The translations under genes were made by a program, and so were the position numbers. From Austropuccinia psidii (lineage: Eukaryota > Basidiomycota > Pucciniomycetes > Pucciniales > Sphaerophragmiaceae), in the NCBI GenBank assembly GCA_023105745.1, contig JALGQZ010000019.1:4712001-4776000 (forward strand): a DNA stretch of 64,000 nt. Direction: 5' to 3'. The notes under the pieces were generated by a model. That model made no database searches, was not told where the DNA came from, and was given only the letters and a program-made list of their open reading frames with translations. Below, piece after piece: positions 1 through 64,000 of this stretch (position 1 is the stretch's first letter; every line of letters begins with the position of its first letter).

Positions 1-3000
1 CAATCATACCATTTTTATTATCCAGTAAAAGAAGGCACACCAGAAAATCAAACACCCAAGGATATTGATTTACTCATTGCAACACCAAGAACAGAACAGA
101 AGGAAAAGGAAGAATTAAGGAGATTTTTCTTCAAGTTAATTCAAGAAGCAAGAAAAAACAAGAGAAGTACAAAAGAATTTAAAAGATCAGTTTATCAAGT
201 AGAAATGAATCAACAATCAACATCTGACTTACCACCATTACCTGAAGATACTATAGAAGGACAGTATGCAGAAGAAAGTGAAGAGGAAGATCAAACAGTA
301 CAGATCCAAAGTCTTATGAAGCAAATGCAAGATTTATTATTAACACAAAGTAAAAAGAAGGGAAAAAGAAGGGAACAAACATCTTACACACCTGGAGCCA
401 GCCCAAGTGAACAAACATTACCAAGGCATGTTAGGCCTGAAGACTCACCAATATCACCTACACCTGGACCAAGAGCAACCTCTACTCCAGCAACAGAACC
501 AAGAGCTCAAAATATTCCAAGGAGAGTGTTTGTCACTACACCTAATAACCCAAGTCCATTACAGCAGAAAGTTCCAAGACAAGAAAGACCTGTGGTTAAG
601 ATTAAAGCAAAAGATTACAATCTAAATTTTGATGGAGAAGAAGTAGAGAAATTTATCAAGAAAGTGGAAAGAATAGCTCAAATTGAAGGAGCAACAGATG
701 AAGACCTAGCAATGCAAATGGCATTTTGGACAACAAACCAAAAGGTGAGTGATTCAATTGAAGCTATGCCAGGTTATGAAGAAGGAAATTGGACACAGCT
801 CAAGAAAGATCTTATAACAAAATGGGGAAGAGTTGAACCTGAAAGAAGATACAGAAAAGACTCACTGATGAAGCTTTTTTCTGAAACTCAAGAAGATGGA
901 GGAATTGGTAGTCTATCACAATATAAAAAGTTTATGGGAGAATATGAAACTATTGTTACTTACTTATTAAGATACAGGTATATTCCTCAAGATAACATGT
1001 TCCATGAAGACTTATTTGATTGCCTTTCAGCTGATATTAAAGGGGCCATAAGCAAGGAAATGATCAAAGATAATGTTATGGTTAGAGCTGAAGATGGAGG
1101 ATACCTTATACCACCTATGAAGATCCTCAAGAAGTACATTGAACAAGAATTGGAAGCCAGAATATTAGTAACCAAAAGATTCTCATCATCAAGAGATACA
1201 GGAAGGTATATCACTGAAAATAAGAATAAAGTTCATTTCAAGGAAGAGGTTTTCCCAGGAATGAATGAAGCTTTTAATAAAATGAAGGAAATTACTGAAT
1301 CCCTCAAAGAACAAAAAATGGAAACTAGAAAGCAGGCACAAGTGGAAAATGAAGATGTCAAGAAATTTATTACTCAACTGGAGGAATTGAAAAGTTTATC
1401 CAAACCTCAAATGGGAGGGCCTACCAATAACCAACTCAATAATCAACAGTTCAAACCAAGAAATGATTTACCCCCATTCTCACAAAGGCATGTTCCCTAT
1501 GCACCAGCACAAAACATACCAAAACCTTATGTCAAATGTTATTACTGTCTGGAAGAAGGACATTCAGTTAATAGATGCAACTACCTATTTGAAGATCAAA
1601 ATAAAAAATGGGTCAGCAGACAAGGAGGTGGATTCTTATTTCCAAATTGGCAAAGAATACCAACAGATGGAAAAATATCACCAAAGAAGTTAGTCGAAGA
1701 ATTTGCAAAAGAACAGGAAGAACTTACCAAGAAAAGAAAAGAAAATGAAGCTAAAGAATCAACACACCAACCAAAAGAAGTAAACATGATACAAGTAAAG
1801 AAAAATGACATTTCAACAGCTATAGCCAAAATCGAAGATTGGGGAAGCTGGCAGCCACCAACTATATCATCAGCAAATGATCCATTTCTCAATAATTATG
1901 GATTAAGAAACACCAAACAAAGATCCTCAAGAAATGAGCATCCAAGTCAAGAAGCAACAAAGTCATTACCAAAAACAATGGAGACACCACTCAAAAAGAA
2001 GCCAAACATACCTGGAGCCTATATTGAAGATGAAAATGGTACAGTGGAAAAAACAATTATTCCCACCAAATTCAAAGAACCTCAAGAGATCAAAGGTGAA
2101 GAAGAAGTTAGCCCAGAAGTTGAAGAAAAACAGGATTCTGAAAAGAAGCAAGAATTGACTCAAAATACTGTTAAAAACAAGAATATCAAGCAAGAACACA
2201 CAGAATTTCAAGAGGTTATGAGTCAAATTATCAAAAAGGTTTTGGATCAGAAAATAAATCTCACCTTAGAACAAGTTCTTGTCATGTCACCCAAAGTTAT
2301 CAACCAGCTTCAAAATTTGACAACAGAAGAAAGAAACTCAATCAACTCACTTGACACAAAAGAAATTCAAACCAAACTCATAAACCACCACTTAGGAGAT
2401 TATGAACAGCCCAAACTACATTATGCCTGTCCATTGGGATTTATGCAAGTGTATGTAGGTGAAGAAGGATATGAAATAATGGCATTAGTAGATACAGGAT
2501 CAGAATTGAACATAATACCAGAAGATTCAGCAATAAAAGCAGGACTCACCACAAGATGTCTCAACATGAATTTAAGGGGGATTGGTGGTCACTGTACTTC
2601 AATTGTTGGATTAGCAGAATTTACCCCAATCACTCTAGTTACTGGGGAGGAAAGAAATATACACCTTTTTGTGGCAAGGGGAGCAGTACACACAGTATTG
2701 GGAAGGCCCTTCCTTGCAGACAATAACATCAGATTAGACTTTTCTCAACAAAAAGGGGAAATATTCAGTTATATAGAGCCAGATGGAAGAAGGCTTTGCT
2801 TACCTATTTGTTCACCACAGAAAGTAGGATGGAGAGAAAACCCACCAGCAGGAATGGAAACATGTGCAGTTTCTAAATTGGAAGATTGGAAAGAGTTACC
2901 AGAAGAAGAAGAATCAAGTTCCAACAATCAGGAAATTTCAGAAGAACATCCTCACCAAGTATTTAAGGAAAAAGAAATAATAGAATCTGAAGATAAAAGG

Positions 3001-5178
3001 GAAATAAAAGTGGTATCAGCCTCAGTCAATGCAGAAGATGTTAAGCCAAGGCCTAAAGAAATAAGGCTTACAGGAATTAAAATCTCAAGAAGAGAAAATG
3101 GAAATACTGGTAACCAAATAACTCAAGCTATCAACTATTATAATTTCAAGAATCCTGAAGAAATCAGAAGAAAATCACTCATCAAGCTCTTGTCACCTAT
3201 CAAAGCATTAAAGTCCCTTTCAAAGGGAATATTTAAGAATAATTGGAAATCAAGTGTAAAACCAGTTATGTCAATAATTCATGTCACAGCAGAAGAAAGG
3301 AATTTTCACTCCAATTCTAATACATCAGCATTAAATTCCTTAAAAGAAATTTCTCTCAAACATAAAATTACCATAAATAAGGATCTCAAACATCAAGACC
3401 ACTCTTTAGTTCAAGAAGAAAGTATGGACTCAACCTCAAAAGCTAAAGAATCTACAGAATTAAACAAAAAATTGGAATATATCAGGAAAAATCAATCAAC
3501 AAATGGAAATGATTATGGTCAAGCAACCTTTAAGAAAGCATCCAGAAAACCCAACATCAAAAATAATGGGAATAAAGATAAATCACTCTTACCACAAGAA
3601 GTAACCAGTCCACCAATTTTATTTTCAAAGTTACTCAAACCAGAAGCATCACCCAAACAGGACAGTGATGAAATTCAGAAACTTCAACTTTTCCCCTCAA
3701 ATATGGTAAACATTGACCCAAGGCTTATTATGGAAAACAAAGATTTTATCAAACAAAACCTAAATAAGTCAGAAATTGAAATAAGCAAATCAGAACAAGA
3801 ATTGTCAAAAGAACTCATTCAAGAACCAAAAGAAGAATCAGATACTTATCTTCCCATAGAAAATAACCTATTTCATATCCACACACCCAATAAGGATCCA
3901 ATATTCCTAGAATATCCTCAACACCTTAAAGCTTTCAACCCAAACAGCAAAGTGAAAAGACAAATTCAATCTGGAAATAAAACTATCCAACAAGAGATTA
4001 ATGCACAAAAAGAAAGTGACATTACCAAAAATGAGGATTTAATGAACTCAAGACCTAAAGATCCTACCAACATCAGTATTCAAGAAAAAGAACATGAAAA
4101 TAAAATAACTCACCATCATGGACACTCACCACAACATAAAAATTATCTTGGAAAAGAAAATAAAAATGTCAAAAGGAACTTAGTCAAAGGGATAAGTCAA
4201 ATATCTTATAAGAAGAAAAGAAGAAGGGCAAACCCATATGATAGGATTGCCCCAAATCAAAAATTATCCTCCAATTCACCATTACATTTGGCATACAGAT
4301 ATCAGGCTTCAATTCAAAATAAAAAAAATCTGCAAAATAAAAAGGAAGAAAATAATTATTTCAGCACACAAATAGGTCAAAATACAGAGGAAATGGACAT
4401 TCATAAAAAATTCACTTACCCAACAAACACAAGGGAATCTATGGAAAACAAATTAGAGCCAAATATAATATTTAGGTCAAATTCTATAAATCATTCAACC
4501 AAAGCCAAGGAGGAAGACTCACCTACCCCACACCATTACTCTGATAAAGAAAATACCAATTTCAATCTGGGAATAAATTACTTTTCTTTGGACAAAGCCA
4601 AGGAAATCCAAATTAATCAAAATAAAGAAATAAATGAAGACATCAGTAATAAACAGGACCAAAAGGCTTTATCAAAACCAACAAACATGGAAGAACTTTC
4701 AGAAGATGGAATTTTACTTACAGAAGACCAATTTCCCTGGGAAGGCTATACCAATTGGCAGCCTTTGAGGAATGAAAATTGTAACCAGGAACTGTACAAA
4801 ATAACTGAACAAGATCATCAATGCTCAGTTCAGCATGTAAAGTGGCTAGAAGGAATAAAGAAAGCATCAAATAAACAAACAGGAAGTAATAAAAAGAAGA
4901 AGAAGACTAAGGAAGAAAAGGAGTATTTTTGGATTACTCAGAACAAAAAGCTATGCCCAAGTTTGCAAGCCCATTTGGCAAGGCAATATCAGACCTCTAC
5001 ACAAAATGAGGACTGGACAGAAAATAATGATAGAAATGGAAAACTTATCCAGGATTACAGTAATAATAATGAAGATTTTCAAGATCAATATATCAATGAA
5101 GAAAGAAGAAATGAGCTTACAGCTAAAAAGGCCAAATTCAAGAATGGTCTTGATAGCAAATTTTTACATCCTCAATGA
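1..5178 (+). CDS. gag-pro: Gag-protease polyprotein of element A, 5' partial, intact
   Basis: The frame is open from base 1; the first ATG is at 205 (1657 codons from there). Upstream codons match the homologous stretch in E (shared IATPRT), so the true start is probably outside the window. From the ATG: a gag core at about residues 130-330, a CCHC zinc knuckle at 445-458 (CYYCLEEGHSVNRC), and a retropepsin-like protease with VDTGSELNII near 762 and VLGRPFL downstream. After about residue 900 comes a K/N/Q/E-rich tail of roughly 750 residues with no recognised domain. That tail contains two related segments (about nt 4240-4330 and 4930-5030, both with a LxxxY/RQYQxSxQN pattern). Such a long open frame in otherwise decayed sequence suggests a fairly recent insertion. 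There is no pol fused downstream. Confidence 0.88.
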   Translation, partial: QSYHFYYPVKEGTPENQTPKDIDLLIATPRTEQKEKEELRRFFFKLIQEARKNKRSTKEFKRSVYQVEMNQQSTSDLPPLPEDTIEGQYAEESEEEDQTVQIQSLMKQMQDLLLTQSKKKGKRREQTSYTPGASPSEQTLPRHVRPEDSPISPTPGPRATSTPATEPRAQNIPRRVFVTTPNNPSPLQQKVPRQERPVVKIKAKDYNLNFDGEEVEKFIKKVERIAQIEGATDEDLAMQMAFWTTNQKVSDSIEAMPGYEEGNWTQLKKDLITKWGRVEPERRYRKDSLMKLFSETQEDGGIGSLSQYKKFMGEYETIVTYLLRYRYIPQDNMFHEDLFDCLSADIKGAISKEMIKDNVMVRAEDGGYLIPPMKILKKYIEQELEARILVTKRFSSSRDTGRYITENKNKVHFKEEVFPGMNEAFNKMKEITESLKEQKMETRKQAQVENEDVKKFITQLEELKSLSKPQMGGPTNNQLNNQQFKPRNDLPPFSQRHVPYAPAQNIPKPYVKCYYCLEEGHSVNRCNYLFEDQNKKWVSRQGGGFLFPNWQRIPTDGKISPKKLVEEFAKEQEELTKKRKENEAKESTHQPKEVNMIQVKKNDISTAIAKIEDWGSWQPPTISSANDPFLNNYGLRNTKQRSSRNEHPSQEATKSLPKTMETPLKKKPNIPGAYIEDENGTVEKTIIPTKFKEPQEIKGEEEVSPEVEEKQDSEKKQELTQNTVKNKNIKQEHTEFQEVMSQIIKKVLDQKINLTLEQVLVMSPKVINQLQNLTTEERNSINSLDTKEIQTKLINHHLGDYEQPKLHYACPLGFMQVYVGEEGYEIMALVDTGSELNIIPEDSAIKAGLTTRCLNMNLRGIGGHCTSIVGLAEFTPITLVTGEERNIHLFVARGAVHTVLGRPFLADNNIRLDFSQQKGEIFSYIEPDGRRLCLPICSPQKVGWRENPPAGMETCAVSKLEDWKELPEEEESSSNNQEISEEHPHQVFKEKEIIESEDKREIKVVSASVNAEDVKPRPKEIRLTGIKISRRENGNTGNQITQAINYYNFKNPEEIRRKSLIKLLSPIKALKSLSKGIFKNNWKSSVKPVMSIIHVTAEERNFHSNSNTSALNSLKEISLKHKITINKDLKHQDHSLVQEESMDSTSKAKESTELNKKLEYIRKNQSTNGNDYGQATFKKASRKPNIKNNGNKDKSLLPQEVTSPPILFSKLLKPEASPKQDSDEIQKLQLFPSNMVNIDPRLIMENKDFIKQNLNKSEIEISKSEQELSKELIQEPKEESDTYLPIENNLFHIHTPNKDPIFLEYPQHLKAFNPNSKVKRQIQSGNKTIQQEINAQKESDITKNEDLMNSRPKDPTNISIQEKEHENKITHHHGHSPQHKNYLGKENKNVKRNLVKGISQISYKKKRRRANPYDRIAPNQKLSSNSPLHLAYRYQASIQNKKNLQNKKEENNYFSTQIGQNTEEMDIHKKFTYPTNTRESMENKLEPNIIFRSNSINHSTKAKEEDSPTPHHYSDKENTNFNLGINYFSLDKAKEIQINQNKEINEDISNKQDQKALSKPTNMEELSEDGILLTEDQFPWEGYTNWQPLRNENCNQELYKITEQDHQCSVQHVKWLEGIKKASNKQTGSNKKKKKTKEEKEYFWITQNKKLCPSLQAHLARQYQTSTQNEDWTENNDRNGKLIQDYSNNNEDFQDQYINEERRNELTAKKAKFKNGLDSKFLHPQ

Positions 5179-5620: not shown

Positions 5621-5663
<43 letters not shown>

Positions 5664-5712
5664 ATTTATTTTATTTCAAACAAAAAAAAAAAAAAAAATA
5701 TTTATTTTAATT

Positions 5713-5749
<37 letters not shown>

Positions 5750-6650: not shown

Positions 6651-6666
6651 AAATGGAGAGGGGGGG
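6651..6666 (+). promoter_or_regulatory. Internal polypurine tract of element A (cPPT-like)
   Basis: AAATGGAGAGGGGGG matches, except for the last base, the polypurine tract just before the 3' LTR (7564-7578). Element E has the same sequence internally at 61427-61441. A candidate second site for plus-strand DNA priming; the function is inferred from similarity. Confidence 0.6.
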
Positions 6667-6870: not shown

Positions 6871-7210
6871 AGGTCCTAGATAAGACCTTAAACTGTCTGA
6901 ATTATTATTTTATCTTTCATCAAGACACTTGAACAAAAATCAATTTCAGAAAAGGTCCTAGATAAGACCTTAAACTGTCTGAATAATTACTTTATCTTTT
7001 ATCAATACCATTCAACAAATGTCAACTCAAGCAGAGGTCCTTGATAAGACCTTAAACTGTCTAGTTTATCTTTATTTTATCAATAATCAATCAAAATTAC
7101 CTCAAGAAAAGGTCCTGAGTATGACCTTAAACTGCCTCATCAACATTATTTTATGCTAATTACAGTCTCAGGACTAAAGCAGAGGTCCTGGATAAGACCT
7201 TAAACTATAC
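6871..7210 (+). repeat. Five class I pseudoknot-like repeats in element A
   Basis: Copies begin at about 6871, 6952, 7035, 7109 and 7183. Each has a 5-6 bp stem (AGGTC with GACCT, or AAGGTC with GACCTT), an 8-nt loop beginning CT, then a tail beginning TAAAC. In copy 4 the loop TGAG can pair with CTCA in the tail. In copies 1-3 loop AGAT or GATA can pair with GTCT or TGTC using G-U pairs. In copy 5 the pairing is weak. Spacing is about 75-82 bases. The same motif recurs in E. Confidence 0.75.
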
Positions 7211-7578: not shown

Positions 7579-9467
7579 TGTGGTATTCCATACCTTTTTA
7601 CCAGTTTCAAGAAAGTTTTGGAAATTTAAAAGTTGGAAAATCAAGATCAAAATGACTAATTCAGGAAATCACCACTCAAAGGACATGCTTAAAATCACAA
7701 AAAAAAAACCAGGAATAACATCAACAGTAGGGTGGAATGGGAGATTTTAGCATTCACAATTGAAATATTCAATATACTTCTATAATTAAATGAATAATGG
7801 AGGAGTCCAATCTTATGGAGTTACACAATAAAGCTTACATATAAGGCTTACATGATCAACAATAGGCTTAATACATACAGAAACTCAAAATTACATGGGA
7901 AAAGTAACATTGTAACATTATATCCACTCTAAATCCCTCAAGAAGACTATATTACCAACAATTACAGTAACCAAATACAGTTCATGTGACACAAGGATCA
8001 TATGACAGTATCCAATCCAATTCAATACAGGAAAATCCACTAAAAAAAAGAAAACTTAAAAATTACACAACAATACAGGAGCCCAAATAAGACTTATGCA
8101 GTCCACATGCATATGATCTGTACAGTACACAGCCTCAGGGTCATCAAATACAACTCAATTCAATTTCAACTAGCTGCATGCAAGGGGAATACACTAAAAC
8201 TGTAAACCACACAGCAATTACAGTAATCAAGAATTAAAACTCAAGAAGATATCCCCACATTACACAGCATGATCACCTGGAACTAAATTAATCTTACAAA
8301 CAAATTATACAGGGGCTTATTCACATGACACCGCCTTCATCCTTAACTCACCAGCATTAATTCCTCAAGGCTGTGCAAGCTGACTAAAGCAGTGCAAAAG
8401 AGAAGTCACCTGATATTCTTATCAAAATCCCCACCAAGAAAAACATCTCAACTTTCATTTTGACCAAACAAATGGTGAAAATATCTCAGTCATATGATAC
8501 CATTCCCAATTTTACACACTAGCAATAATTTCTCAAGGCTGTGCAAGATTACTAATGCAGTATAAAAGATAGGTCATCTGACTTTTGTTACAAAAAATCT
8601 ACACCAGCAAAATTATCTCAAGGGCAAGAATAACACTTTACATGGAGACCCATGGGTACTTCTCACAACATAAAAGGAGGCCTCTCTCTCTCATTTTTCT
8701 CCTCTTTCCTCATGCAAATAATTATATACCAAGAAGGAGAATAATTATTCATCCCTTACTAGTAGGTTAATCTAGAAATTATTATTATTAAATTACACTC
8801 AATAGTGGTTTATAAATAGCTGTAGTTAACAGTAGGTCTGCCTATATTATAAATTCATCTATTAGTGAAGTACTCATACTCAACAAAATATTTATATTAT
8901 ACTCTTCTCACTAGAAGAAAATCTATATCACTAGTATTATTATCACAAAATATATATTTAACATATTATCAAAATTATTTATCAATTACACTTATTTAAA
9001 ATATCAAACAATATTATTATATTATCACTATTACTAAATTTTCTCATATTGAGCTATTATCCATTAAACAAAATACCTTCAACAAAGAAAACAACTTAAA
9101 ATCACCACTCAGTATTATTATATCTCGTATTTATTTTACTCAATTATTACTTTATTATCCTAAAATCACCTACAAATTTATCTTTTGAAATTATTTTATC
9201 TAAATTAGTATTATTATTTTATCATTAGGCTGATTATTGAATAGGTCTGATAGAGACTGCTAAAAAGTCTTCTTTAGTTGTAAAGCCACAATCTTAAATA
9301 TTGATTTGTGAGCTCTGTAGGGAGATTGTTTAGTATATTCAGAGGGGCAGCTAAAACACCATTAGCACCCTTGGTTACAGGATTATTTCAGAAATTCAAA
9401 ACTGTTTACCTGTGATTTCCCCCTCAAGGACTGCCTTATCCAATCCCACACCAAGAGGAGTTCCACA
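7579..9467 (+). repeat. 3' LTR of element A (1889 bp)
   Basis: Begins TGTGGTATTCCATACC and ends GTTCCACA, matching the start (48187) and end (50043) of the 5' LTR of E. A likely TATA box, TAAAAGG, is near 8671, followed by a pyrimidine-rich stretch. Inside the LTR two related segments (about 8360-8400 and 8530-8570) share CTCAAGGCTGTGCAAG; the E LTR also has repeated AGGCTGTGCA. The short ORFs in this interval are not genes. Confidence 0.85.
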
Positions 9468-36135: not shown

Positions 36136-36147
36136 AGGGGGAGGGAA
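36136..36147 (+). promoter_or_regulatory. Polypurine tract of D
   Basis: AGGGGGAGGGAA immediately before the TG of the 3' LTR, 12 bases after the Gag-Pol stop. Confidence 0.88.
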
Positions 36148-37975: not shown

Positions 37976-37980
37976 CTTGA
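37976..37980. repeat. Right target-site duplication of D
   Basis: CTTGA, identical to 27895-27899. Confidence 0.93.
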
Positions 37981-46999: not shown

Positions 47000-48186
47000 T
47001 TTTTGAGCATATGTGTCAGCCTGTGACTCAAAACCAGAGCACAAGCATGACAGCCAATATACCATAAATCAATGGTATAGCCAAGATACCACCAAAACAT
47101 GGAGCTGAGACAAATCAGCTGAAAAGATATCAAAAGAAAGAGGAAACTCACCCCTTTCTGAAAATATAAGTCCCATCACCATAGGACAAGAAATAACAAA
47201 GTTATTGCTGAGCATAAACCTTAATTTTCACCTCTCATCTAAAATCTAGAAGGAGAGGCTTAACCCCATCAAATGGTTACTTAGAATGAAGGTCTAAGCC
47301 AGGGCTATCTAATGGTACAAGCCAAACTGAGCTAGCACCAATATTACTGGAGTTATGGTGAATTTCAGGCCAAATAAGGGTGAACAAAACATTCACCTCT
47401 CATCTGACTTCTACAGTTTTAGTGTGGGATACTTGAAGTGGGGTCTTTTTGGAAAGAGCACAATCAGGGCTATCTGATGGTGCCATCCACTTCTTCATAT
47501 CTCAACTATAACAGAAGTTATGAGGCAAACAAGCGCAATACAGCTTTTTGCCCAAACCACGGCTATGTATAAAAAACCTTGTACGTGGAATAACTTTGTC
47601 ATATTTAATGATAACCATACCAAATTGGGTATCATTGTGTAGAGCACATACAGGGCTATCCAATGAACCAACTTTGAGCATGATATCTCAAACACTGACA
47701 GAGGTATGGCTATTTGAAAGTTAAAATCCCACAATATGACCAATACAGCTGTATTATGACGGGATACAGTTTTACTCTGATTATGAGGTGTCAAACAGGT
47801 GCTGAAGCTTATTTATACTTCAATACCTTATAATTAAGTCAAATACAGAGGTCCATACAGGTTCTGTACAGTTTCTGACGTGTCAGGAGCACCAGAATAC
47901 ACCTGTAAACTCCATTGGTGAAAGTTTTCACCCTGTATAGGGTAAAAATGACTACTTGTGGTTCTAAAACCACATTTCAACCCAATACTAGCCTTTATTG
48001 AGTGTATAGAACCACAAACCAGCCCACAGTAGTGAAAAATTTCACTCTGTGGTTGTGTGCAGAGGTAAACCACCTCCCACTACCCCAGAACAAGATAAAC
48101 GGAGGCTTTGCCTCACCAGGAAGAAAATCCAGCATCCTGTTCTTGATATTCTTACGTGGTATAGCTTCTTAAAAAAGAAGTGGTAC
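47000..48186 (+). repeat. B-family LTR, split by element E
   Basis: Inverted homologue of 16.95-17.89 kb: for example GCTGAGCATAAACC at 47210, and GTGAAAAATTTCACTCTGTGG near 48030 matching the B LTR. It is interrupted at 48187 by the LTR of E; the five bases before (GGTAC, 48182-48186) should be duplicated after E, outside the window. The start near 47.0 kb is approximate. The minus-strand ORFs here are spurious. Confidence 0.65.
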
Positions 48187-50043
48187 TGTGGTATTCCATA
48201 CCATTTTTTTCACCAGGCTCAAGCTCATAGTACCCTATAACAGCAGAAAATCCAGCCTACAGGCAGACTTACACTCAAATTTTACACCAAAAGGTCAATT
48301 TTACAGCAAGAAGCTGGATTTAACTCATAAAACCATGGCACAGGCACCAAAGGGAAGTGTATGTGTTAAAATAAATTATTCAATTTCATTATGCATATCC
48401 AAAAAAATCAAGTTACATATAGCAAACTAGTTACAACAAATAAGGTACCACTCTTTAAGTTAAACACCCCACCCAGCTTTACACCCCCTTACAGCCACAG
48501 GAGTACCTTATCTTATATCCAAAGTAACCCCACTGGAAACCTTAAAATAGAATCAGATCTATTTACACCACTCATCACCTCATGCAAAACAAAGCTAGTT
48601 ACAACAGGCTGCATGCAGTACACCATTTTAATTAAATCTCAACCACATGACTATGCACAGCATGTGTCAAGCTCAAAAATCACATCATCTCATACATAAC
48701 AGTAAATTCACCAGTAAAAGAAACTATCACCTGACTTCATTTTAAAGTTCAAAAAGAAGAAAAACAACCATGACACCTGCATAAATTACACAGCCACTTC
48801 TACCAAACCTAAAATAGGACATATGCAAAGGAATTACAAGTTCATCATGTGATACTGCATCCACCAACAGAATATCATGTGACAAGAAAGAGGCTGTGCA
48901 TAACAAAAATCCCCAGCCAAAATTGAATCACCTGATGTATGCAAGGAAAATTCAAGAATATCACATCATAATTAGTTCACCAAAAGACAATCATGTGATG
49001 AATGGAGGCTGTGCAAAGAGAAAATTATCACCAAACCTTAAATCACCTGACCCATGCAAGAAAGGTTCTCACCAAAAACAGAGTCACATGATGAAATCAA
49101 GAGGAATTAAAGTGGAAAGAGACAGCTCCCATGGAGGGCCCTCTAGGCTCCCAAAAGGTATAAATAGAGGGGCTCTCTCCCCCCAAATTTCAAATTCTCC
49201 CCATGCAAATTATATCCACTGCACAGTAGGAGCATAGGAATAATTCATCCCTCACCTGGGAGGTCGTCCAGCATATTATAGTAAATTTACTTGCCCAGTA
49301 GCTAAGCTCAGTGGAAGTATAGTGTTGAAGATTAACCAGTAGCTAAGGTCAGTGGAATTTTATTATTATTAAAAATAAAAATAAAAATTACCCAGTACCC
49401 AAGATTAGGGTTACTACTCTATTAAAATATTTTAACTAGTAAAATTAACTTCATTTAACAAGATTTAATACTAACTTACCCATTTAAGATCAAATATCAA
49501 AGAATCTTACCTCTTGAACTTAATAAATACTATTTTATCTCATTATCAACACTGTTAAAAAAATAACAAAACTTTAAAAAAATTATTTTACTCTATTATA
49601 ACTATACCTTAACAAAATTACATTTATCAACACCAATTGAATTCTCCAGAAAACCTTAAATAACCCATCTTACCAAGGATTTATCACCAAGAAGAAACCA
49701 TTCACCTCAATTTCACTAAAAAAAATATTAAAATTAAACAGACAAGTATTTCATTAAAATCTAAAAATTAACCAAATTACTGACATTATTTTTCATATTA
49801 TATATTGAATAGGTCTGATCTGAGACTGCTGAATTTTGTCTTCTGCAGTTGTAAAGCCACTTACTAATTTTATTTTGGTTTGTGAGCTCCAAGGAAGATT
49901 TTGTTCAGTATTTTAGGAGGGGCAGGCAATACACCCTTGCCACCCTTGGTTACAGGAGTTATGAGCAATTCAAAACTAGTTACCTGTGATTTCCCCCTCC
50001 AGGTACTGCCTCATTTTAATCCCACACAAGAGGAGTTCCCACA
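48187..50043 (+). repeat. 5' LTR of E (1857 bp)
   Basis: Begins TGTGGTATTCCATACC and ends GTTCCCACA, parallel to 7579-9467. TATAAATAG at 49159 is a good TATA box. The last 240 bases (from GAATAGGTCTGATC) closely match 9238-9467. Repeated AGGCTGTGCA units lie at about 48887 and 49005. No gene. Confidence 0.88.
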
Positions 50044-50096: not shown

Positions 50097-50615
50097 CAAC
50101 CCCAAGAATACTATTTTTATAACAAAAAACTGGATTCAAATAATCAAAATCAGCAAAAACCATCATCTCAAGAATCTGAATCATCAACTCACTCTGATCA
50201 TTACTATTATCCACCCAAGCAAGAAACAGAACTAGGGGAGGAATCAAATAAATATTCCAATTTCCCAATTGCAACACCAAGAACCAATAAAAGGGACTTG
50301 AAGGTTGTGGAGAAATTCTTCCTTGATCTCCTTGAAAGAAATAAAATCAATAACTCAACACCAAAATCAAAGGAAGAAATAAAAAAATCAAAAATGGATA
50401 AACCTTCATCATCAAAGTTACCTGGTAGTATTGAAGAAATTCAGGGAGAAAACTTTAATGAAGAAACTGTTGAAGGACAGGAAGAAATGTCTTCAACAGA
50501 GAGACTTCAGCAGAAGATGCTAGAAATGCAAGCAGAATTACTAACACTAATCAAAAAGGAAGGCAAAATTAAATCATCAAGCTATACTCCACAAAATAGT
50601 CCACTTGAAGAATAA
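50097..50615 (+). pseudogene. gag: Gag N-terminal region of E
   Basis: Open from 50097, just after a TAA, without an early ATG (first ATG near 50394). Contains HYYYPPKQE and NFPIATPRTNKRD, matching the start of A (FYYPVKEG, LLIATPRTEQK). It ends at TAA 50613 (SPLEE). The missing start codon suggests non-AUG or spliced initiation, or decay. Confidence 0.65.
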
Positions 50616-50744
50616 ACCACCCTTCCAAGATCATTCAGGCAACATGGATCACCTTCACCTTACCCAAGACCCATGGCCACATGAACACCTTATACAGAAC
50701 AAAGACAAAGTACCTTACCAAGAAGTGTCAACATTTCTTCCCAA

Positions 50745-51515
50745 ATGCCAACTCCATTACATCAAGAAATTCCAAGAAACACTACTCCAATGGTGAAAAT
50801 CAGAGCCAAGGACTATAACTTGTGGTTTGATGGAAAGGATGTTGACAGATTCATCAAGAAAGTTGAAAATATTGCAGAAATTGAAGGAGCAAGTCGAAGA
50901 GACATTGCAAGACAAATAACATTTTGGACAAAAGATGAAGAAATCAGTTATCATATTGAAGGAATTCCAGGATATGAAACAGCTGATTGGGATCAATTAA
51001 AAGTGGATATGAAAAGAAGATGGGGAACAGTCTCACCTGAAAGAAGATACAGATTATCCTCAATCACTGAATTATTCACAAAAACTCAACAAGAAGGTGG
51101 AATAAGAAACATGACGCAATACAGAAAATTCATTGGGGAATATGAAGCAATCATCACTTACCTCAAAAGATACCAATACATCCAAGGTGATATCAATCAT
51201 AACCAGGAAATATTAGCCAGCCTTTCCACTAGTGTTCAAGAATCAATTTACAAAGAAATGATTAAAGACAGAGCTATGGTTCAAGCCTTGGATGGAGGTT
51301 ACATCATTCCAAGATTGGATATTTTGAAATTATACATTGAACAAGACTTGGAGGCCAAGGTACTTATTCAACAAAAAGAATTTTCTAAACCAAAACATCC
51401 AGAAAAGAAAACAACATTTGAGGATAAAAGCTGGGATGAAGTTTTTGAAACAAGTAAAAGAACTCACCCAAAAGATCAAAAATCCTCCACAACCAGAAAC
51501 TCAGCCAAGAAATGA
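50745..51515 (+). pseudogene. gag: Gag core of E
   Basis: 256 codons: VKIRAKDYNLWFDGKDVDRF, WTKDEEISYHIEGIPGYE, PERRYRLSSITELF and MIKDRAMVQALDGGYIIP, all closely parallel to A (VKIKAKDYNLNFDGEEVEKF). It shifts frame near 51400-51500 into the next segment. Confidence 0.85.
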
Positions 51516-52026
51516 GGGAAAAGAATCAGTTAAAGAAGTTTTAAATCAACTCAAAACACTTTCAGAAGCAGTTAATCCACCAAGAAGGAACTGGAACGAT
51601 AATCAAGAGCAAAGATTACCTCAAAATAATCAGCCATACAGGCAAAGGAATCCTTTACCACCATTTTCATCCAGTTATCAACCTTACATACCAGCTCAAA
51701 TGGCTCCAAGACCACCAATGAAATGTGCTTACTGCAAGGAAGAGGGTCATACAGCAACTAGATGCACTCACCTTGCTGAAGATTTAGACAGAAGAATTGT
51801 CAGAACCCAAGGAGCATCTTACCTCTTCCCCAATTATCAGAGAGTACCTATGGAAGGAAATGAAAGTGCCAAAAACATAGTCAGGGCTTTTGCAAAAGAA
51901 CAATCAGAACTCAACAAGAAATTTATGGAAAAACCTCTTTTCAAAGAAAAACCAGAAGAAGAGGTTAAGCCCACTGAAAAGAAATCAGAAGATAAATCAA
52001 CCTCAATTGCTCATGTTGAAGATTAG
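51337..52026 (+). pseudogene. gag: Gag C-terminal region and zinc knuckle of E
   Basis: Supported in its second part: PPFSSSYQPYIPAQMAPRP, the CCHC knuckle CAYCKEEGHTATRC (about 51724-51765) and LFPNYQRVPMEG, parallel to A. It stops at TAG after HVED, where A reads EDWGSW, so a TGG to TAG change fits. Another stop near 52177 (YIEE) follows. Confidence 0.83.
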
Positions 52027-52377
52027 TCAAATTGGAAACCACCTACCATTTCCTCAGCCAATGATCCTTTTGAATCACACATTGGACTAAGGCAGACCAA
52101 GCAAAGAATGGAAAGACAATCCCAAAATCAAGAGACAAAGAAGAAAACAGCTCTTCCAGGAACTTACATTGAAGAATAAAAAGAGGAAGAAAGAGTAATA
52201 ATTCCCACCAAATTCCAAAACTCAAATATTCCAAAACCAGACCAACCTGAGGAGGAAATTGAAAAAATTGCCAATAAGAATGAAGATGAAGACATTCCAA
52301 AAGAAAAGAAAGTCATCAAACCTCAAAAGAAAAAAGTTGAAAGCAAACTAGAAATTGAAAAAATTATTAAGAAAATC

Positions 52378-53214
52378 ATGCAACAAAAGATCAACCTCAC
52401 CATTGAAGAAATCTTGAGGATGTCACCCAATTTTGTCCATAAATTACAAGAATTATCAGAAAAAGACAAGGAAAAGATTAAATCACTCAACTCAATGGAT
52501 CTTCAAGAAAGACTATTAACATTTGGATTCAAAGAAAAACCAAAGCCCAAGATTCATTATGCTTGTCCTTTGGGATTTATGAAAATCTTCATTGGAAGGG
52601 AAGAATATCCTATCAGAGCATTACTGGACACTGGTGCAGAACTCAACATTATACCAGAAGAAATAGAAATCAAAGCCTCACTCACAACAAGAAATCTTAA
52701 TATGAACCTTAAGGGAATTGGAGGCCATACCACTTCATTGGTTGCACTTTCAGAATTTACTCCAATCATTTGGGCTTCAGGTGAAGAAACTCTAATTCAC
52801 ATCTTCATTGAAAAATGATCTGTCCATACAGTACTTGGAAGACCTTTCTTGGAAGACTACAATATAAGACTAGAACTTTCCCATAAACAAGGTGAGATAC
52901 TCAGTTATCAAGAGCCTGATGGAAGAATATTATGCATTCCAATATGCAAGCCTCAAGCACTTGGATGGCATACTGGACCACCTAGAGGAATGGATTTATG
53001 CAATATGGCAACATTGGTCAGAAATAACCCAGGAAAAAAGGATCAAAATGCAAAAAGAGAAAATACCATAATCAATTTGACCCAGAAGACCCAACATTTA
53101 TCCATATCTCCAAAAAGGGATAAATTTGGCCAAGAATTCAAAATACAAAAACGCCAAACAGCTTCAAGAGACAATTTGAAGACTCAACCTCTGAAGATGA
53201 ATTACCCAATATAA
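52378..53214 (+). pseudogene. pro: Aspartic protease region of E (one internal stop)
   Basis: MQQKINLTIEEILRMSP, then HYACPLGFMKIFIG, active site LLDTGAELNIIP (about 52620-52660) and GIGGHTTSLVALSEFTPI. TGA at 52816 interrupts the frame, which then continues SVHTVLGRPFLEDYNIRLEL and ILCIPICKPQALGW to TAA at 53212. Parallel to A throughout. Confidence 0.88.
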
Positions 53215-53390
53215 TCTACAAGCCAATTAGAAGTAAGGAAGAAACTTTCCAGATTTTAGTAGATGGAAATGAGAAAATACATGGAAACCCTTTCAAACCT
53301 AAACCCAAAAAGAAGAAAGTCAGATTTAGTGAGCATCATGAGCTCTCAGATGAAGAAACTATCAATGAAATAGAAAAAGACCTCAAAATT

Positions 53391-54815: not shown

Positions 54816-54937
54816 ATTCAAATTCTTACCCAAAATTATCACCCAAAAACCCATCAAACCTACTCTCAAAATCTTTTTATAAATAAATCAAATATTATTA
54901 CCTTTTAACACTTCAAAAATTCACCAAATCCTTCAAA

Positions 54938-55579
54938 ATGAAATCATGGCCATTAATTAAAGAAAATCCCTGGTCATTGGACATAGATATCAGATGGCTA
55001 GAAGAAAAAGAAGTCTGGGCCAATTACATTAATCAACAAGAAATAGAAGAAAATCCTGACTGGTTCTTGCAAATAAAGCCAGAACTCTGTCCTGATATTT
55101 CCACCATTGTCCTTCCATATATTGAGTTTGAGGACATCTTTGAAAAAGAAAACTCACCATCAGAAAGTGTCATATCTCATCCATGGAAAGAATTACCTGG
55201 ATTTAACCTCACAAAGTATGAATTATTGGATTTAATGACTTGGGATGGAGTTGAAGGCAACCTTGGAAACAATTACTGGAATGAAATATTTAACATGGAT
55301 GAACACCTCAGAAAATTCCTATTTTGGAGGACCTGGGAATGCCAAGACTGGTTCAACCTGCAGGATTTTGAAATTGAAAATGGAAAAATAAGCAAGATCT
55401 CAGGAGGATATAATATAAAGAATGCCATATGGGATTATCATTGGGAAGAAACACTTATACCAGGCATACTCCATCTTAGGGGTGGTGCAACTAAAATGAT
55501 TACAGAAGATTGGACATACTTCTTCCAAGAATACTTTTTCAAAACTTTCAAAAGAGAAAATGCAGGGGAAGAAATTTGA
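54938..55579 (+). CDS. Accessory ORF 2 of E, paralogue of ORF 1
   Basis: 213 codons, MKSWPLIKENPW to TGA 55577. It shares with ORF 1 the ordered motifs LPYIEFEDIF, ELPGFNLTKYELLDLMTWDG, GNLGNNYWNEIFNM and a C-terminal GGYNI-IWDYHW block (compare DGYIFIDEDLWW). Tryptophan-rich, acidic, no signal peptide or membrane segment. No homologous domain known to me. The intact ATG-to-stop frame in a decayed element could be chance or could reflect selection. It is followed by a short low-complexity 3' region. Confidence 0.68.
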   Translation: MKSWPLIKENPWSLDIDIRWLEEKEVWANYINQQEIEENPDWFLQIKPELCPDISTIVLPYIEFEDIFEKENSPSESVISHPWKELPGFNLTKYELLDLMTWDGVEGNLGNNYWNEIFNMDEHLRKFLFWRTWECQDWFNLQDFEIENGKISKISGGYNIKNAIWDYHWEETLIPGILHLRGGATKMITEDWTYFFQEYFFKTFKRENAGEEI

Positions 55580-59190: not shown

Positions 59191-59274
59191 ATATATATAT
59201 ATATATAACAATAAATTAAATCACTTTCAATTTAAAAAAAAAAAAAAAATAAAAAAAAGAAGAAGAAAAAAAAA

Positions 59275-60320
59275 ATGCCCTGAGCAAGGCATTAAACTGC
59301 TCAAATTTTATTTTTTATGTTTTTTTACTGATTTTCCCTTTAGTTTAATAATTAGAAAAAAAAATAATATAAACAAAAGCCCTCAGCATGGCTTTAAACT
59401 GCTGAGTTTTCTTATTTTAATTAAATAATTTTCTTATTAATTTTTTTATGCTACAGGGCTATAAACAATGAATGTCCTCAGCAAGACATTAAACTGCTGG
59501 AATTTTCTTTCATTTGCTCTTTTTATATTGGATATTAAATTAAACTGACATATTTAAATTTGGATATGGCTACAGGGCTATAAACAAAAAAAATGTCCTC
59601 AGCAAGACATCAAACTGCTGGAATTTTTTCATTTTCTCCTTAATAATACATGAAGCTGACATATTTATTTTTATGTGCTACAGGGCTATAAAGGACAATG
59701 CAAAGCACTAAGAAAGGCTTTAAATTGCAATTTCTATTTTTTTTATTTTTAATTTTTTTCTTATATTTTATAATATATTATACTGACATATTTTATTTTG
59801 AATGCTACAGGTGTTCATAATGAAGATATTTTTCTGATTTTATAACATTAAAAGTGTTTTTAAAGTGAAAAGTAGTCCTAAATAAGACTATAAACTGTTT
59901 AATTCAATTTTCAGCTTGGCTTTGAAGATAAATCAAAGCCAAAAGTATTATCAAGAAAAGAAATCAACCAATGGTCCTTGGCAAGACCATAAACTTCCCA
60001 TCAAAAATTCTTAACATGGATTCAAAATACAAAAAAAATAAAGTAATGGTCCTTGGCAAGACCATAAACTGCCCCTTCAAATATCAACATGAAATCAAGC
60101 CAATATCAACAAAAAAAACAACAAAAAGAAAATCTGTGGTCCTTGGAAAGACCATAAAGTGGCCACCATTAGAATTATCAACAAGGACTCACAGCTAAAA
60201 CACAATCAACCAATGGTCCTTGGAAAGACCATAAACTTCCTATTTAAAATATTCAACAAAAAATATTGAACAAGGACTATCAAAGGAGGATAAGTCCTAG
60301 GCAAGACTATAAACTACCCA
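59275..60320 (+). repeat. Array of eleven class I pseudoknot-like repeats
   Basis: Copies start at about 59275, 59376, 59471, 59593, 59702, 59873, 59971, 60046, 60137, 60213 and 60293. Stem 1 varies but stays paired: ATGCC/GGCAT, AAAGCC/GGCTTT, AATGTC/GACATT, TAGTC/GACTA, ATGGTC/GACCAT and others. Loop and tail also pair in many: TGAGCA/TGCTCA (copy 1), CTCAGCA/TGCTGAG (2), CAGCA/TGCTG (3, 4), GGCA/TGCC (8), GGAA/TTCC (10). In copies 5, 7, 9 and 11 the second pairing is weak or absent. Between copies 2 and 6, GCTACAGGGCTATAAA and CTGACATATTT recur as part of a longer unit of 100-120 bases. Confidence 0.78.
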
Positions 60321-61426
60321 AGGTTTTATTTCTTATTTTTTCTAATTTTATTTCATTATAAACAAGTATTAGAAAGATGTACTGACTTGAAACTTTTGAA
60401 CATACTTTTTTTTCTTTTTTTAAATTTATTTATTCATTTTCACTAAGAATTAGGGGAATATCCCATTCATGATCTCAAGAATATTCTATTTATTTATTAT
60501 TTTTATTATAATTTTCCTACTATTACAACAAAAGCCATTAAATTGGCTTAATTTTTCAACTCAATAATGATAATAATTCAAAAAAAAAAAACTCTAAACC
60601 AACTAATTGGTTAGAAAAAAAAATCAATTTATTTGAAATATTTCTTCAATGACAAGAAAGTGATTGGAGCTTGTTTGAAAAGAAGAAGTATTTGTGCCAT
60701 GAAGGCATTAATTGAGCTCTGAAGGAGTTATATATATTAAAAACTCATAAATTGATGACATAATTTGGGGAATTTACATATTAATAACACCTCAATGTGC
60801 TATTTTATTCCAAATGGAATTTAAAAAGCCCCCCAAAAAGCAAACAAGAGTTTTCTCTTATTGTGCAAATTTTCATTTTTCACTGTTTCTATTTTTTAAC
60901 AACTCAAATGCATTTATGGGTAACAGAAAATCTGAACCATAAAGGGGATGGACTTGAAACAAAGCCTGAGTCAAAATGATGATTCCAAAAGGAAGAGTTG
61001 TGGCATCATAAGGGTAATTATATGAATAAAGGGCTCAAATTATGATCATTCAATTATGTAATATTAATTATAAATACTCCCAAGAGCACCAATTTTTGCT
61101 AAATGGCACAAATTACCACCTTCAACCAAACAGCTCCATGATATTGATTGTGATTCAGGTTTATTTCCTTTGAAGTGTCATTTTTACTCAGATATCTCAC
61201 TTTATGGTTATTTTATACTTACATCAAAAAAAAAAAGCAAATTATTATTGAATCATCATTAAAAGAGAATTATGTATATTTACTGTATCATTATTTATCC
61301 TCATCAAAATCACCATAAAAAATAAGGGGTGGGTAAACTTATTTCTTACACTATCCCTTATAGTCGAAGTTTTGGGGGAATGAGAACATATCCTCTTCAA
61401 AATTTGAAAACCAACTCAAGATTTTT
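60321..61426 (+). other. Non-coding spacer of E
   Basis: AT-rich with no supported ORF. It contains homopolymer runs, and no class I copy was seen here. Confidence 0.45.
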
Positions 61427-61441
61427 AAATGGAGAGGGGGG
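61427..61441 (+). promoter_or_regulatory. Internal polypurine tract of E
   Basis: AAATGGAGAGGGGGG, the same as the internal tract of A (6651), about 1.1 kb upstream of the RT ORF and thus far from any 3' LTR. Candidate central polypurine tract. Confidence 0.6.
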
Positions 61442-61929
61442 CCCTTATCCAAACAAATATTATTAAAGAAAATATATATATATCAATAAATTAATATTAA
61501 AATTGGTTTTTAAATCACCTTATTATTAAATTTTTTTATTTTTCATTTCTTTAGAACAGGTATAATTCAGGAATACAAAAGAACAAAAGGACATAAATTA
61601 GTTTGAAGAAATAGAAAGAGAATTGGGAAGCAATTCATTATAGGAAAATTATTCACAATACTGAGAATAAAGAAGATTTTTTATGGAGAAAAGCAGGAGT
61701 TCCTTATGGATTGACCTTTGGACAGCACAAGAACTTGGACACTTCTTTGATTCTGGATTGAAACTCATTTGGAATTCAAGAATCATTGGTCAGGATTTAT
61801 GGACTGAAGGATGACCCACTGGATTAATTATGGACTCAGGACTCACTCAACATGAAGGACTAACAAGATGATGTACAACGCTCAAATCAAATTGCCCTTG
61901 GGATTTTAAAGAAGATTGAAGACTCAAGA

Positions 61930-62415
61930 GGTCCTCAGCATGACACTAAACTGCTTCCCCTGTAGACTTGGGCAGGGAAACTTATAAAAAAAAAAGCCAA
62001 GAAGCTGGAGGGGATTTTCCTAGTCAGGAGAAGTGCTGAAGGACCATTTTTGTCCTCAGCATGACAATAAACTGCTTGCTTTGTGTAACAGGAACAAGGG
62101 GTTTCACAGGTGTTTAGCATTATCAAATTGGCCAGAATGAACAAAGTGGAGTCTCAAGCCATCAATGAAGACAAGAAAATTACTTATCAAGAAATAAAAC
62201 AACCAGAAGAGTCTTTCATAAAGTGGGAATCATGAAGATTGAAGAATAAAACAAGAGTCAAGTGCAATCCAAAATCAAGCCCAAAGGAGCTCAAGAATCA
62301 AGATAAGCCCTTGGATTAGGCCAGGAGGTCCTTGCATGACTTAAACTGCAGGACTTGTATACCTAATATACAGGGCTTACACACCTAGTTGTAGGTCCTG
62401 TATGACCTTAAACTA
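61930..62415 (+). repeat. Four class I pseudoknot-like repeats before the RT ORF
   Basis: At about 61931, 62050, 62327 and 62393. Stems GTC/GAC, TTGTC/GACAA, AGGTC/GACTT (one G-U pair) and AGGTC/GACCT. Loop-tail pairs AGCA/TGCT (twice), TGCA/TGCA and TGTA/TACA, with the TAAAC linker kept in all four. Confidence 0.75.
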
Positions 62416-62536
62416 CATTTTTTTTATGGAAGAAAGAAGAAAGAAGAATTGTGAAGACCTCAATAGTTTAGGACACTAGCAAATTCTTAGAAATAATTCA
62501 AAGCAAGAAGAAAAAAAACAAAATAACTAACTGAAG

Positions 62537-64000
62537 ATGGATCACCAAATTTTAGCAGCCAAATACAAATCAGTCCTGAAGAAGGTGAGACCAGTCAATG
62601 AGCCAATGCCTCAAGACCTTAAACCACCTTTGGAAAGACCACCTTTGTCAAGAGATCCTTATGAAACACCCTTATCACCAAACCCACCTGTATTTCAAGA
62701 AACCTTCAAGGTCACCCATGAAAGACTGCAAGCAGTCAATTTCGGCCCACCAGGATGGTTATCAAATGAAGAAATCAATTGACTCAAAAATGTTATTACC
62801 TTAAGGGAAAAAGCAATAGCCTTTTGTGAAGAAGAAAGAGGATTACTCAAGCACTCATATGGAAAGCCTTACAAAATACCAGTAATAACTAATGAACCTT
62901 GGCAGAAGAAACCAATTCCCATTCCCAAATCAATTTTACCTCAGTTTACTGAATTAATCAGAGAAAGAATCAGGACTGGACTCTATGAGAAATCCACCTC
63001 AAGCTACACAAGCCCAATCTTTTTTGTGGCCAAATCAAATGGGAAACTCAGAATTTTCCATGACCTTCAAGAACTCAACAAAGTCACCATCAAGGATGCT
63101 GGCTTACCACCTCATATTGAAGAATTTGTAGATGCATTTTCAGGAAGAGCATGCTATGGACTAGGAGACATCATGGGAGGATATGATGAAAGAGAATTAG
63201 ATGTCACTACAAGACCCCTCACCACTTTTGAAACACCCCTTGGAAGGATGCAACTCACAAGACTACCCCAAGGAGCCACCAACTCAGTAGCAGTATACCA
63301 AGCCCAAATGACCTGGATACTCCAAGAAGAAATACCAGAAAGTGTAGGAATTTTCATTGATGATGGAGGAATAAAAGGACCAAGATCACTTTACAACCAA
63401 GAAACACTACCAGAAAACCCCTCAATCAGAAGATTTATATGGGAATATGCCATAAACTTAGAAAGAGTTTTATTCAGGATTGAAGAAGCAGGACTTACTA
63501 TCTCAGGATCAAAGTTTTCATGCTGTGTTCCAGCTTTGGACATATTAGGGCATGTTGTATCATTTAAAGGAAGAAAAATTTCAAAACAAAAGATTAACAA
63601 AATTCAGAATTGGCCAACACCTCTTAATAAGAAGGAAATAAGGGGATTTCTTGGACTTTGTGCCTATGTAAGGATGTTCATTGAAAACTTCTCACAAGTT
63701 GCATCACCACTCAGAAGGCTCACAAGAGAAGATGTTGACTGGGATTGGGATCAAAAATGTGAAGAAGCTTTTCATAAGCTCAGAAGAATAGTTGGAGAAG
63801 AAATACTCCTCAAGAAATTGGATTATGACAAAGGAGCAGGAAAAATTAAGGTAGCAGTAGATTCAAGCTACATTGCTGCAGGAGCAGTACTCACTCAAGA
63901 AGATAAAGAAGAAAAAGACAGGCCAGTAATATATAAATCAATAACTTTTTCAAAATTGGAATCAAAACACTGACAACCCAAATTGGAACTCTGTGGAGCT
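62537..64000 (+). pseudogene. pol: Reverse transcriptase and RNase H start of E (two stops, runs off window)
   Basis: One frame from ATG 62537 (MDHQILAAKYKSVLKKVRP), interrupted by TGA at 62780 and again at 63971, then continuing to the window end. RT landmarks: SSYTSPIFFVAKSNGKLRIF, HDLQELNKVTIKDAGLPP, LGDIMGGYDERELD, LTRLPQGATNSVAVYQAQM and the catalytic FIDD at 63353-63364 (F in place of the usual Y). Then comes LDILGHVVSFKGRKIS and the RNase H start KVAVDSSYIAAGAVL. It belongs to a different Ty3 lineage from B, C and D. Pol is in a separate ORF about 9.3 kb after the protease. Confidence 0.88.

Follow-up and report, generated by a model that had tools for sequence, protein, structure and literature searches.

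The window analysed here is a 64,000-nucleotide stretch of the genome of the rust fungus Austropuccinia psidii (GCA_023105745.1, contig JALGQZ010000019.1, positions 4,712,001 to 4,776,000; G000:C19:4712001-4776000). It contains two long terminal repeat (LTR) retroelements, called elements A and B below, that host arrays of a small H-type pseudoknot. A preliminary description of the sequence had proposed about 20 copies of one such layout, and we recover that number. Eighteen copies on the + strand, five at 6871-7208 and 13 at 59274-62417, were identified by a structure-based finder, which asks for a first stem (S1) that is at least 4 bp long and topped by a C-G pair, a Y-first loop ending A-N, and then YAAA[CG]U. 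The remainder are a copy at 61931 with an inner 3-bp stem only and a degenerate copy at 59703. No finder copies lie elsewhere on the + strand (100-6500 and 7500-58900 covered), and the - strand of the window gives two weak matches. The copies of 59275-62415 are unevenly placed, forming array 1 (59274-60315) and array 2 (61931-62417), 1.6 kb apart:

6871..6899, + strand: pseudoknot copy A1, S1 AGGTC/GACCT, loop CTAGATAA, second stem (S2) 6 bp
6952..6981, + strand: pseudoknot copy A2, from the finder, S2 6 bp
7034..7061, + strand: pseudoknot copy A3, from the finder, S2 4 bp
7109..7135, + strand: pseudoknot copy A4, from the finder, S2 3 bp
7182..7208, + strand: pseudoknot copy A5, from the finder, S2 3 bp
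59274..59303, + strand: array 1 copy 1, S1 AATGCC/GGCATT, loop CTGAGCAA, S2 6 bp Watson-Crick
59376..59406, + strand: array 1 copy 2, S1 AAAGCC/GGCTTT, S2 7 bp Watson-Crick
59471..59500, + strand: array 1 copy 3, from the finder, S2 6 bp
59593..59621, + strand: array 1 copy 4, linker CAAAC, S2 6 bp
59703..59726, + strand: degenerate copy, not among the 18 finder copies
59872..59901, + strand: array 1 copy 5, from the finder, S2 6 bp
59971..59995, + strand: array 1 copy 6, first S2 pair alone in register
60046..60073, + strand: array 1 copy 7, S2 4 bp Watson-Crick
60135..60160, + strand: array 1 copy 8, linker ends AAAG, first S2 pair alone in register
60213..60240, + strand: array 1 copy 9, S2 4 bp Watson-Crick
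60293..60315, + strand: array 1 copy 10, first S2 pair alone in register
61931..61955, + strand: array 2 copy 1, inner stem GTC/GAC only
62050..62076, + strand: array 2 copy 2, S2 4 bp Watson-Crick
62326..62352, + strand: array 2 copy 3, 7-nt loop CTTGCAT, S2 6 bp; like spacing in L016, L018, L022 and L027
62393..62417, + strand: array 2 copy 4, 6-nt loop CTGTAT, S2 4 bp

S2 joins the loop to the tail beyond the linker, and we measured its length as the number of consecutive pairs counted from the pair between the loop A and the tail U. Thirteen of the 18 finder copies have 4-7 pairs, two have 3 pairs and three have the first pair only. The second helix proposed in the preliminary description is thus present in most copies, but an all-Watson-Crick version occurs in six of these 13 rather than in the roughly 11 it had counted. 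Two further features accompany the arrays. A second short repeat, GCTACAGGGCTATAAA, is interleaved with the pseudoknots of array 1 (59450-59820), and ATACAGGGCTT at 62368 complements the loop of the last copy (62393..62417), a possible alternative pairing.

The hosts of the arrays have the following parts:

L009:7917-9805: element A 5' LTR, 99.7% identical to its 3' LTR
1..5178, + strand: element A gag-protease-like open reading frame (ORF), entering from upstream; protease matches below Pfam cut-offs (best E 0.00018)
6651..6662, + strand: polypurine-tract-like AAATGGAGAGGG, 5' of array A; more at 7314, 7564 and 61427
7579..9467, + strand: element A 3' LTR
48176..50043, + strand: element B 5' LTR, about 97% identical to the 3' LTR
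50097..52818, + strand: element B gag-protease region, interrupted ORFs; retroviral protease domain in 52180-52818 barely above the Pfam cut-off
53124-54020 and 54887-55579, + strand: two element B ORFs without a Pfam match
62537..64000, continuing into L010, + strand: element B pol, with its own ATG at 62537, reverse transcriptase and RNase H domains and an integrase-type end; stop at 62780-62782 in this copy
L010:1738-3634: element B 3' LTR

Element B is a Ty3-type LTR retroelement: it has LTRs, its protease, reverse transcriptase and RNase H domains score above Pfam cut-offs, and its integrase-type motif is recognized by pattern only. Named relatives of its pol protein are mostly Austropuccinia psidii MF-1 proteins, whose identity to it reaches 93% in partial alignments. 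In element A, LTRs are present and the protease-like match stays below the cut-off; an ORF and Pfam scan found no pol between its gag-protease-like ORF and its 3' LTR. Both elements have their arrays 3' of gag-pro; in the autonomous one, a separate pol follows them. There, about 7 kb from 55579 to pol hold no + strand ORF of 150 codons, and both arrays fall inside this interval. The pol ATG is about 120 nt past the end of array 2 in the window and in L016, and a layout of two blocks followed by pol is common to the pol-bearing loci L016, L018, L022 and L027. A 17-codon ORF also follows soon after the last pseudoknot and before the pol ATG (window 62426-62479; L016:7712-7765). The AAATGGAGAGGG at 7564 is a primer-tract-like sequence ahead of the element A 3' LTR; among 19 long array sources examined, 17 show the same sequence around their arrays, where it perhaps marks internal primer tracts.

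The pseudoknot is abundant in the rust genome (1.015 Gb and 84 contigs searched). Exact matches to GTCCTNNNNAAGACNTTAAACT number 2,993 genome-wide against 0 for the reversed pattern, and a wider pattern, GTCCTNNNNADGACNWTAAACT, has 8,690 against 2. Together with the corresponding control on virus contigs (see below), these reversed-pattern searches rule out a chance origin of the copies. We then characterized a sample made up of stretches around 38 of the 54 clusters on contig C1 and two stretches flanking the window. With the window itself, it contains 247 copies from 39 sources (L001-L008 were dropped as duplicates of L011-L014). The copies keep to a single strand in 38 of the 39 sources, and 246 of the 247 lie outside same-strand ORFs of at least 150 codons. 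In the eight fetched loci that have gag- or pol-type ORFs, these ORFs share the strand of the copies.

Several lines of evidence indicate that both stems are maintained. Of the 247 copies, 245 had enough flank and 230 of these an 8-nt loop and 2-nt gap, giving 206 distinct rows. Conservation counts from the first collection were partly fixed by the search pattern; we used instead counts in which one position at a time was freed, over 40 fetched stretches and the window. The preliminary description had noted that S1 changes between copies while pairing is kept, and the sample bears this out. The S1.2 pair, when left free, is U-A in 155 and C-G in 55 of 217 copies, with seven others (one U-G), and is a standard pair in 211. 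S1.4 is paired in 190 of the 206 distinct rows, compared to 117 expected. Mean S2 length is 4.07, versus 3.00 for permuted tails, and sliding the register lowers pairing at the middle pair from 0.78 to 0.515 or less. The linker, rightly described there as almost invariant, reads NWUAAAC in 205 of the 240 copies having one of the twelve commonest linkers.

To separate covariation from shared descent, we used a tree-aware test in the manner of R-scape, in which per-column parsimony changes are replayed on a FastTree tree and scored by average-product-corrected G. The s5.2:s3.2 pair is fixed by the search pattern and was not counted as evidence. Among unfixed pairs in the rust rows, loop5:tail3 (S2.3) lies beyond all 99,900 null values (E <0.007), and up-1:g1 (S1.4) has E 0.007 on 206 rows and 0.04 on the 149 that remain after near-identical rows are thinned. 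Third among them is g1:tail4, which is not a predicted pair (E 0.18-0.19), and S2.4 and S2.5 are singly non-significant in this set. Because only loop5:tail3 and up-1:g1 pass, the rust set has one significant pair per stem, in agreement with the earlier claim of covariation in both stems beyond phylogeny.

The same pseudoknot occurs in phages and bacteria. On virus contigs, GTCCTNNNNADGACNWTAAACT matched at least 120 stretches, and the reversed pattern matched 33 in all, each with a single match. Among the matches listed, the virus set has 144 copies, 134 of them distinct, and S2 reaches at least 5 bp in 113 of the 134, compared to 53 from permuted tails. A variant with a GCC/GGC stem matched 111 virus stretches (80 distinct rows, 63 of which reach at least 5 bp in S2 versus 30 permuted). 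Prokaryote genomes gave at least 115 stretches, with 112 distinct rows among the matches listed (72 versus 32). When the three sets are pooled and thinned from 326 to 279 rows, again among the matches listed, S2.4, S2.3 and S1.4 lie beyond every null value and S2.5 has E 0.02; the fixed s5.2:s3.2 pair is also beyond the nulls, S2.2 has E 0.4-0.7 and the next pair E 10. The 217 listed GTC-stem rows alone again place S2.3, S2.4, S2.5 and S1.4 first (E <=0.013). Since these sequences are unrelated to the rust, their covariation is independent support for the pseudoknot. The tree-aware nulls in the rust and in the phage and bacterial sets rule out inheritance without structure.

These copies, too, tend to sit between genes. 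Among the matches listed, those with S2 of at least 5 bp fall inside an ORF of at least 100 aa in 17 of 113 (virus), 10 of 63 (GCC stem) and 10 of 72 (prokaryote) cases; for random positions within these loci, the shares inside ORFs are 69%, 76% and 79%. In the same order, an upstream ORF ends within 300 nt in 67, 41 and 37 listed cases, at median gaps of 19, 45 and 118 nt, and a downstream start lies within 250 nt in 90, 59 and 55, at median gaps of 27, 66 and 54 nt. Five phage records picked for having several copies contain 4-6 each, all on a single strand and with no control matches. One example is Synechococcus phage S-EIVl (KJ410740.1), whose four copies (S2 of 4, 6, 5 and 1 bp) are on the minus strand like the neighbouring genes, with one directly 5' of the gene for a single-stranded DNA-binding protein. 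The near-invariant A of the loop matters in phages as well: a control for a base other than A at this position, A(n-1), gave 33 stretches and 27 distinct rows, whose S2 does not exceed that of permuted tails and 18 of which fall within ORFs. Because such matches are at chance level, we conclude that this A is required.

The genes that follow are often for head scaffolding. We compared 96 of 103 downstream phage proteins with PHROGs, leaving out seven of about 570-590 aa. Among these 96 distinct proteins from the matches listed, 18 belong to phrog_194 and 13 to phrog_172, both head scaffolding (the groups may overlap). In a control of 94 proteins drawn at random from these loci, the 25 commonest of 148 families include none for scaffolding, singletons being mostly not shown. 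A BLAST search of two scaffold loci against named phages gave no match. Downstream of the listed prokaryote copies, the capsid scaffold family DUF4355 accounts for 7 of 37 proteins and Rrf2 for 6 of 37. In seven Omnitrophota loci (L434, L448, L471, L482, L484, L491 and L530), the pseudoknot is upstream of an Rrf2-type regulator gene, six of them confirmed by Pfam. In three Clostridia (L443, L447 and L496), the gene that follows it resembles that for ribosomal protein L11, and Pfam L11 matches the single protein tested. Two bacterial loci, L535 and L493, have a second variant copy directly downstream in tandem, one with a 5-nt loop.

What might such a structure do? The letters around the linker, whose match to a known motif was absent from the preliminary description, offer a clue. 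The rust motif resembles coremin, or xrRNA-C, an exonuclease-resistant RNA (xrRNA) of plant and fungal viruses that include beet necrotic yellow vein virus (RNA3), benyviruses, cucumoviruses, hypoviruses and others. The two have in common the GUC/GAC stem, the Y...AD loop and the UUAAAC-U spacer at the same spacing; loops of 6-8 nt, repeats in some viruses and a 3' untranslated region (UTR) or intergenic site are also known for coremin (PMC10520033, PMC5869530). Coremin stalls the exonuclease Xrn1 in yeast, a fungus (PMC5869530), and the halt point is one nucleotide ahead of its first hairpin, hp1. Stalling depends on the loop rule YGAD/YGNNAD, on the second hairpin and on the spacer C and U, which were changed together. 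Among the loops tested, those of 4, 6, 7 and 8 nt can work and those of 5 nt fail, and CGAAAU and CGCAAU are Xrn1-resistant (PMC10520033). At the time of that paper, its three-dimensional structure was unsolved (PMC10520033).

The overlap of letters with the coremin core is clear. At freed positions in the rust, the top stem pair is C-G in 212 of 222 copies, and the stem ends like that of hp1 in GUC/GAC or in a compensated GCC/GGC. The loop opens with Y in all 217 copies counted, A(n-1) is A in 212 of 213, and the last loop position is A, U or G, with C in 0 of 212 in the fetched stretches and a genome-wide count of 8,690 for D versus 15 for C. A U follows the spacer in 212 of 216. UUAAAC followed by U is otherwise present, but the spacer itself is not strict because UUUAAAC-like or AUAAAC variants are common. 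The rust motif differs from coremin in having U rather than G at loop position 2, a loop-tail pseudoknot of up to 7 bp instead of a second hairpin, and tandem arrays inside an LTR retroelement. By its letters, then, it is a coremin-like variant; with the loop G and second hairpin missing and a loop-tail helix in their place, we do not file it as coremin. In the rust motif, A(n-1) pairs with the U that follows the spacer to start S2; because coremin needs the corresponding A, and stalling was abolished when its spacer C and U were changed, its core may be a minimal form of the rust-type knot.

Coremin-type loops themselves, in CGNNAD hairpins with a UAAAC-UA spacer, are found in DNA phages. The pattern GTCCGN{0,4}ADGACNWTAAACT was run on virus contigs (loci L313-L431) without a reversed-pattern control, so the evidence here is position. 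Among the matches listed, there are 101 distinct rows, and in 83 the loop is 6 nt long, reading CGAAAT 33 times and CGCAAT 14 times; UA comes next in 73 of the 83. Only 7 of these 73 are inside ORFs, compared to 71% of random positions, and phrog_194 and phrog_172, both head-scaffolding, account for 8 of 49 downstream proteins each. In Enterococcus phage VEsP-1, a copy of this type lies in the gap that runs from the stop at 5912 to position 6053, where the gene immediately ahead of the major capsid gene starts. Another, L380:388-407, precedes an Rfam tRNA at 414-485. Rfam at curated score has no match over the CGNNAD hairpins in 20 scanned loci of L313-L431.

Taken together, these features make it probable, in our view, that the copies work like the coremin Xrn1-resistant RNA, as a mechanical stop to 5'-3' decay. 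Of the roles listed in the preliminary description, RNA stability has the strongest support, because the letters conserved here coincide with those of an RNA proven by experiment to block an exonuclease. For the path of the RNA in three dimensions, for the way it would stop the enzyme and for what the element would gain, we infer the following. S1, of 4-6 bp and ending GUC/GAC or GCC/GGC, would close a C-U-NNNN-A-D loop whose interior pairs with the tail, and the UAAAC linker would cross S1. An exonuclease arriving from the 5' end of a decapped retroelement RNA would meet the knotted 5' side of S1 and stop, leaving the RNA downstream intact, and copies in tandem would tighten the block. What is protected in element A would be a short RNA from the 3' end, with its primer tract and LTR; the element B product would be a stable, uncapped 3' RNA that starts in the array and carries pol. 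The rust genome encodes XRN_N domains. Use of a 5'-3' block by phages is conceivable because, according to PMC5760640, a flaviviral xrRNA halts not only Xrn1 but also yeast Dxo1 and bacterial RNase J1. We also count the intergenic phage sites, often 5' of head-scaffolding genes, in favor of a stability block.

If the copies do block 5'-3' decay, LTR retroelements and DNA phages would share an RNA-virus trick, in a small pseudoknot-only version of coremin. Such a block could account for the expression of pol, a cistron about 7 kb past the gag-side ORFs, and for the way phages adjust the dose of scaffold to that of adjacent genes. For pol, an internal promoter or splicing to an acceptor site could serve just as well. 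More broadly, this minimal pseudoknot, with viral coremin its best-known cousin, may be a general barrier to 5'-3' RNA decay across domains, used by DNA phages between genes, often just ahead of those for head scaffolding, to preserve downstream transcript, by some bacteria in front of their own genes, and multiplied in a lineage of rust retroelements to thousands of copies, whose arrays set gag apart from pol and could yield a stable pol RNA. We offer this wider proposal tentatively and rate its chances at somewhat below even. If it is true, exonuclease-resistant RNA would be a feature of DNA viruses and transposons and not of RNA viruses alone; no report of such RNAs outside RNA viruses was found in the accessible portions of the open-access literature searched. 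The phage-borne copies make the question of a decay block directly testable in ordinary laboratory systems.

Several observations weigh against a coremin-like decay block. Loop position 2, where coremin needs G, is U in 212, C in 4, A in 2 and G in 0 of 218 rust copies, and no CG..AD loops occur in the fetched rust stretches. No second hairpin was detected: the 40 nt after the spacer have a mean folding z of +0.29 relative to shuffles in 120 sampled rust copies, compared to +0.05 in 113 phage, -0.34 in 63 GCC-stem and -0.66 in 73 phage CGNNAD copies (the last among the matches listed). One rust source, L036, carries one copy on each strand. In phages, at least 120 stretches have C at the last loop position, and 83 distinct rows among those listed include 59 with S2 of at least 5 bp and 22 inside ORFs; because C is common there, the D rule is not general for the octaloop class. 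Finally, among 49 genomes searched, RNase J scores above cut-off in 19 of 33 carriers and 10 of 16 chance-hit genomes. None of nine carriers titled Omnitrophota or Omnitrophica has it above cut-off, Saelkia does not either, and the same holds for the five genomes tested among the seven Rrf2-linked Omnitrophota. As RNase J is not enriched in carriers, bacterial use need not involve it.

Other activities of an RNA knot have to be considered alongside decay. An element or phage protein could recognize it for packaging, dimerization or autoregulation, which we consider unlikely. Packaging signals can be repeated, as these arrays are, and the link to head scaffolding could reflect autoregulation by a coat or scaffold protein. 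However, the loop interior and S2 vary freely, and because the same letters precede unrelated genes (SSB, Rrf2, ribosomal L11, perhaps tRNAs) and occur in a fungus, no single shared protein partner is apparent. Control of translation, in which knots would halt ribosomes, whether scanning or reinitiating, on the way from gag-pro to pol or would gate a downstream start, would suit the short distances from array 2 to the pol ATG and from the phage and bacterial copies to the next start. Coremin also slows scanning ribosomes in vitro (PMC10520033). Still, the array of element A follows its only large ORF and has no start codon to gate, some phage copies precede tRNA genes (by eye, and by Rfam for L380:388-407), and bacteria have no scanning; we regard this explanation as quite improbable.

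Two further explanations carry very little weight. The copies might have no RNA function and be an old repeat spread by duplication, with pairing inherited from one founder. Those copies that were mapped to elements do belong to mobile ones, and recent duplicates are among the copies (230 octaloop rows, of which 206 are distinct), but such a history is already contradicted by tree-aware covariation in both stems, by near-invariance at freed single positions and by the same structure in unrelated phages and bacteria, and we hold it to be highly improbable. Pseudoknots for -1 ribosomal frameshifting of the luteovirus-like kind are similar in size and have an A-rich linker. Their position contradicts such a role: only 1 of 247 copies is inside a same-strand ORF of at least 150 codons (slippery sites were not searched for), and pol has its own ATG about 120 nt past the last copy. 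With nearly all copies outside such ORFs and most in tandem arrays, the recoding suggested in the preliminary description is unsupported, and we give it almost no chance.

The pseudoknot does not belong to a described Rfam family. Rfam 15 had no match over the motif in the whole window at curated score or in the arrays at E <=10, and in 59 distinct phage and bacterial loci (curated score; some at E <=5) it had matches beside the motif only. Two other classes of resistant RNA, xrRNA-LT of Tombusviridae and Solemoviridae and the flaviviral xrRNA, are likewise pseudoknotted, found in 3' UTRs or between genes, and thought to block Xrn1 mechanically (PMC10520033, PMC5760640). They differ from the motif in having larger folds, and no xrRNA family in Rfam matches the window. 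To our knowledge, neither has a sequence core in common with it. The upstream pseudoknot domains of tobamovirus and furovirus 3' UTRs are consecutive H-type pseudoknots, and no Rfam family of this type matched the array regions at E <=10.

In two clostridial loci, L466 (S2 2 bp) and L542 (S2 6 bp), the DUF2800 RNA (RF02960) starts a few nucleotides 3' of a copy. This is a separate 158-nt family whose match leaves out the pseudoknot core, and its described 5' boundary may be too short. Elsewhere in the window, direct repeats at 27899-29731 and 36147-37979 are 99.9% identical and flank a polyprotein-like ORF of 1985 codons at 30167-36124, apparently a very young LTR retroelement.

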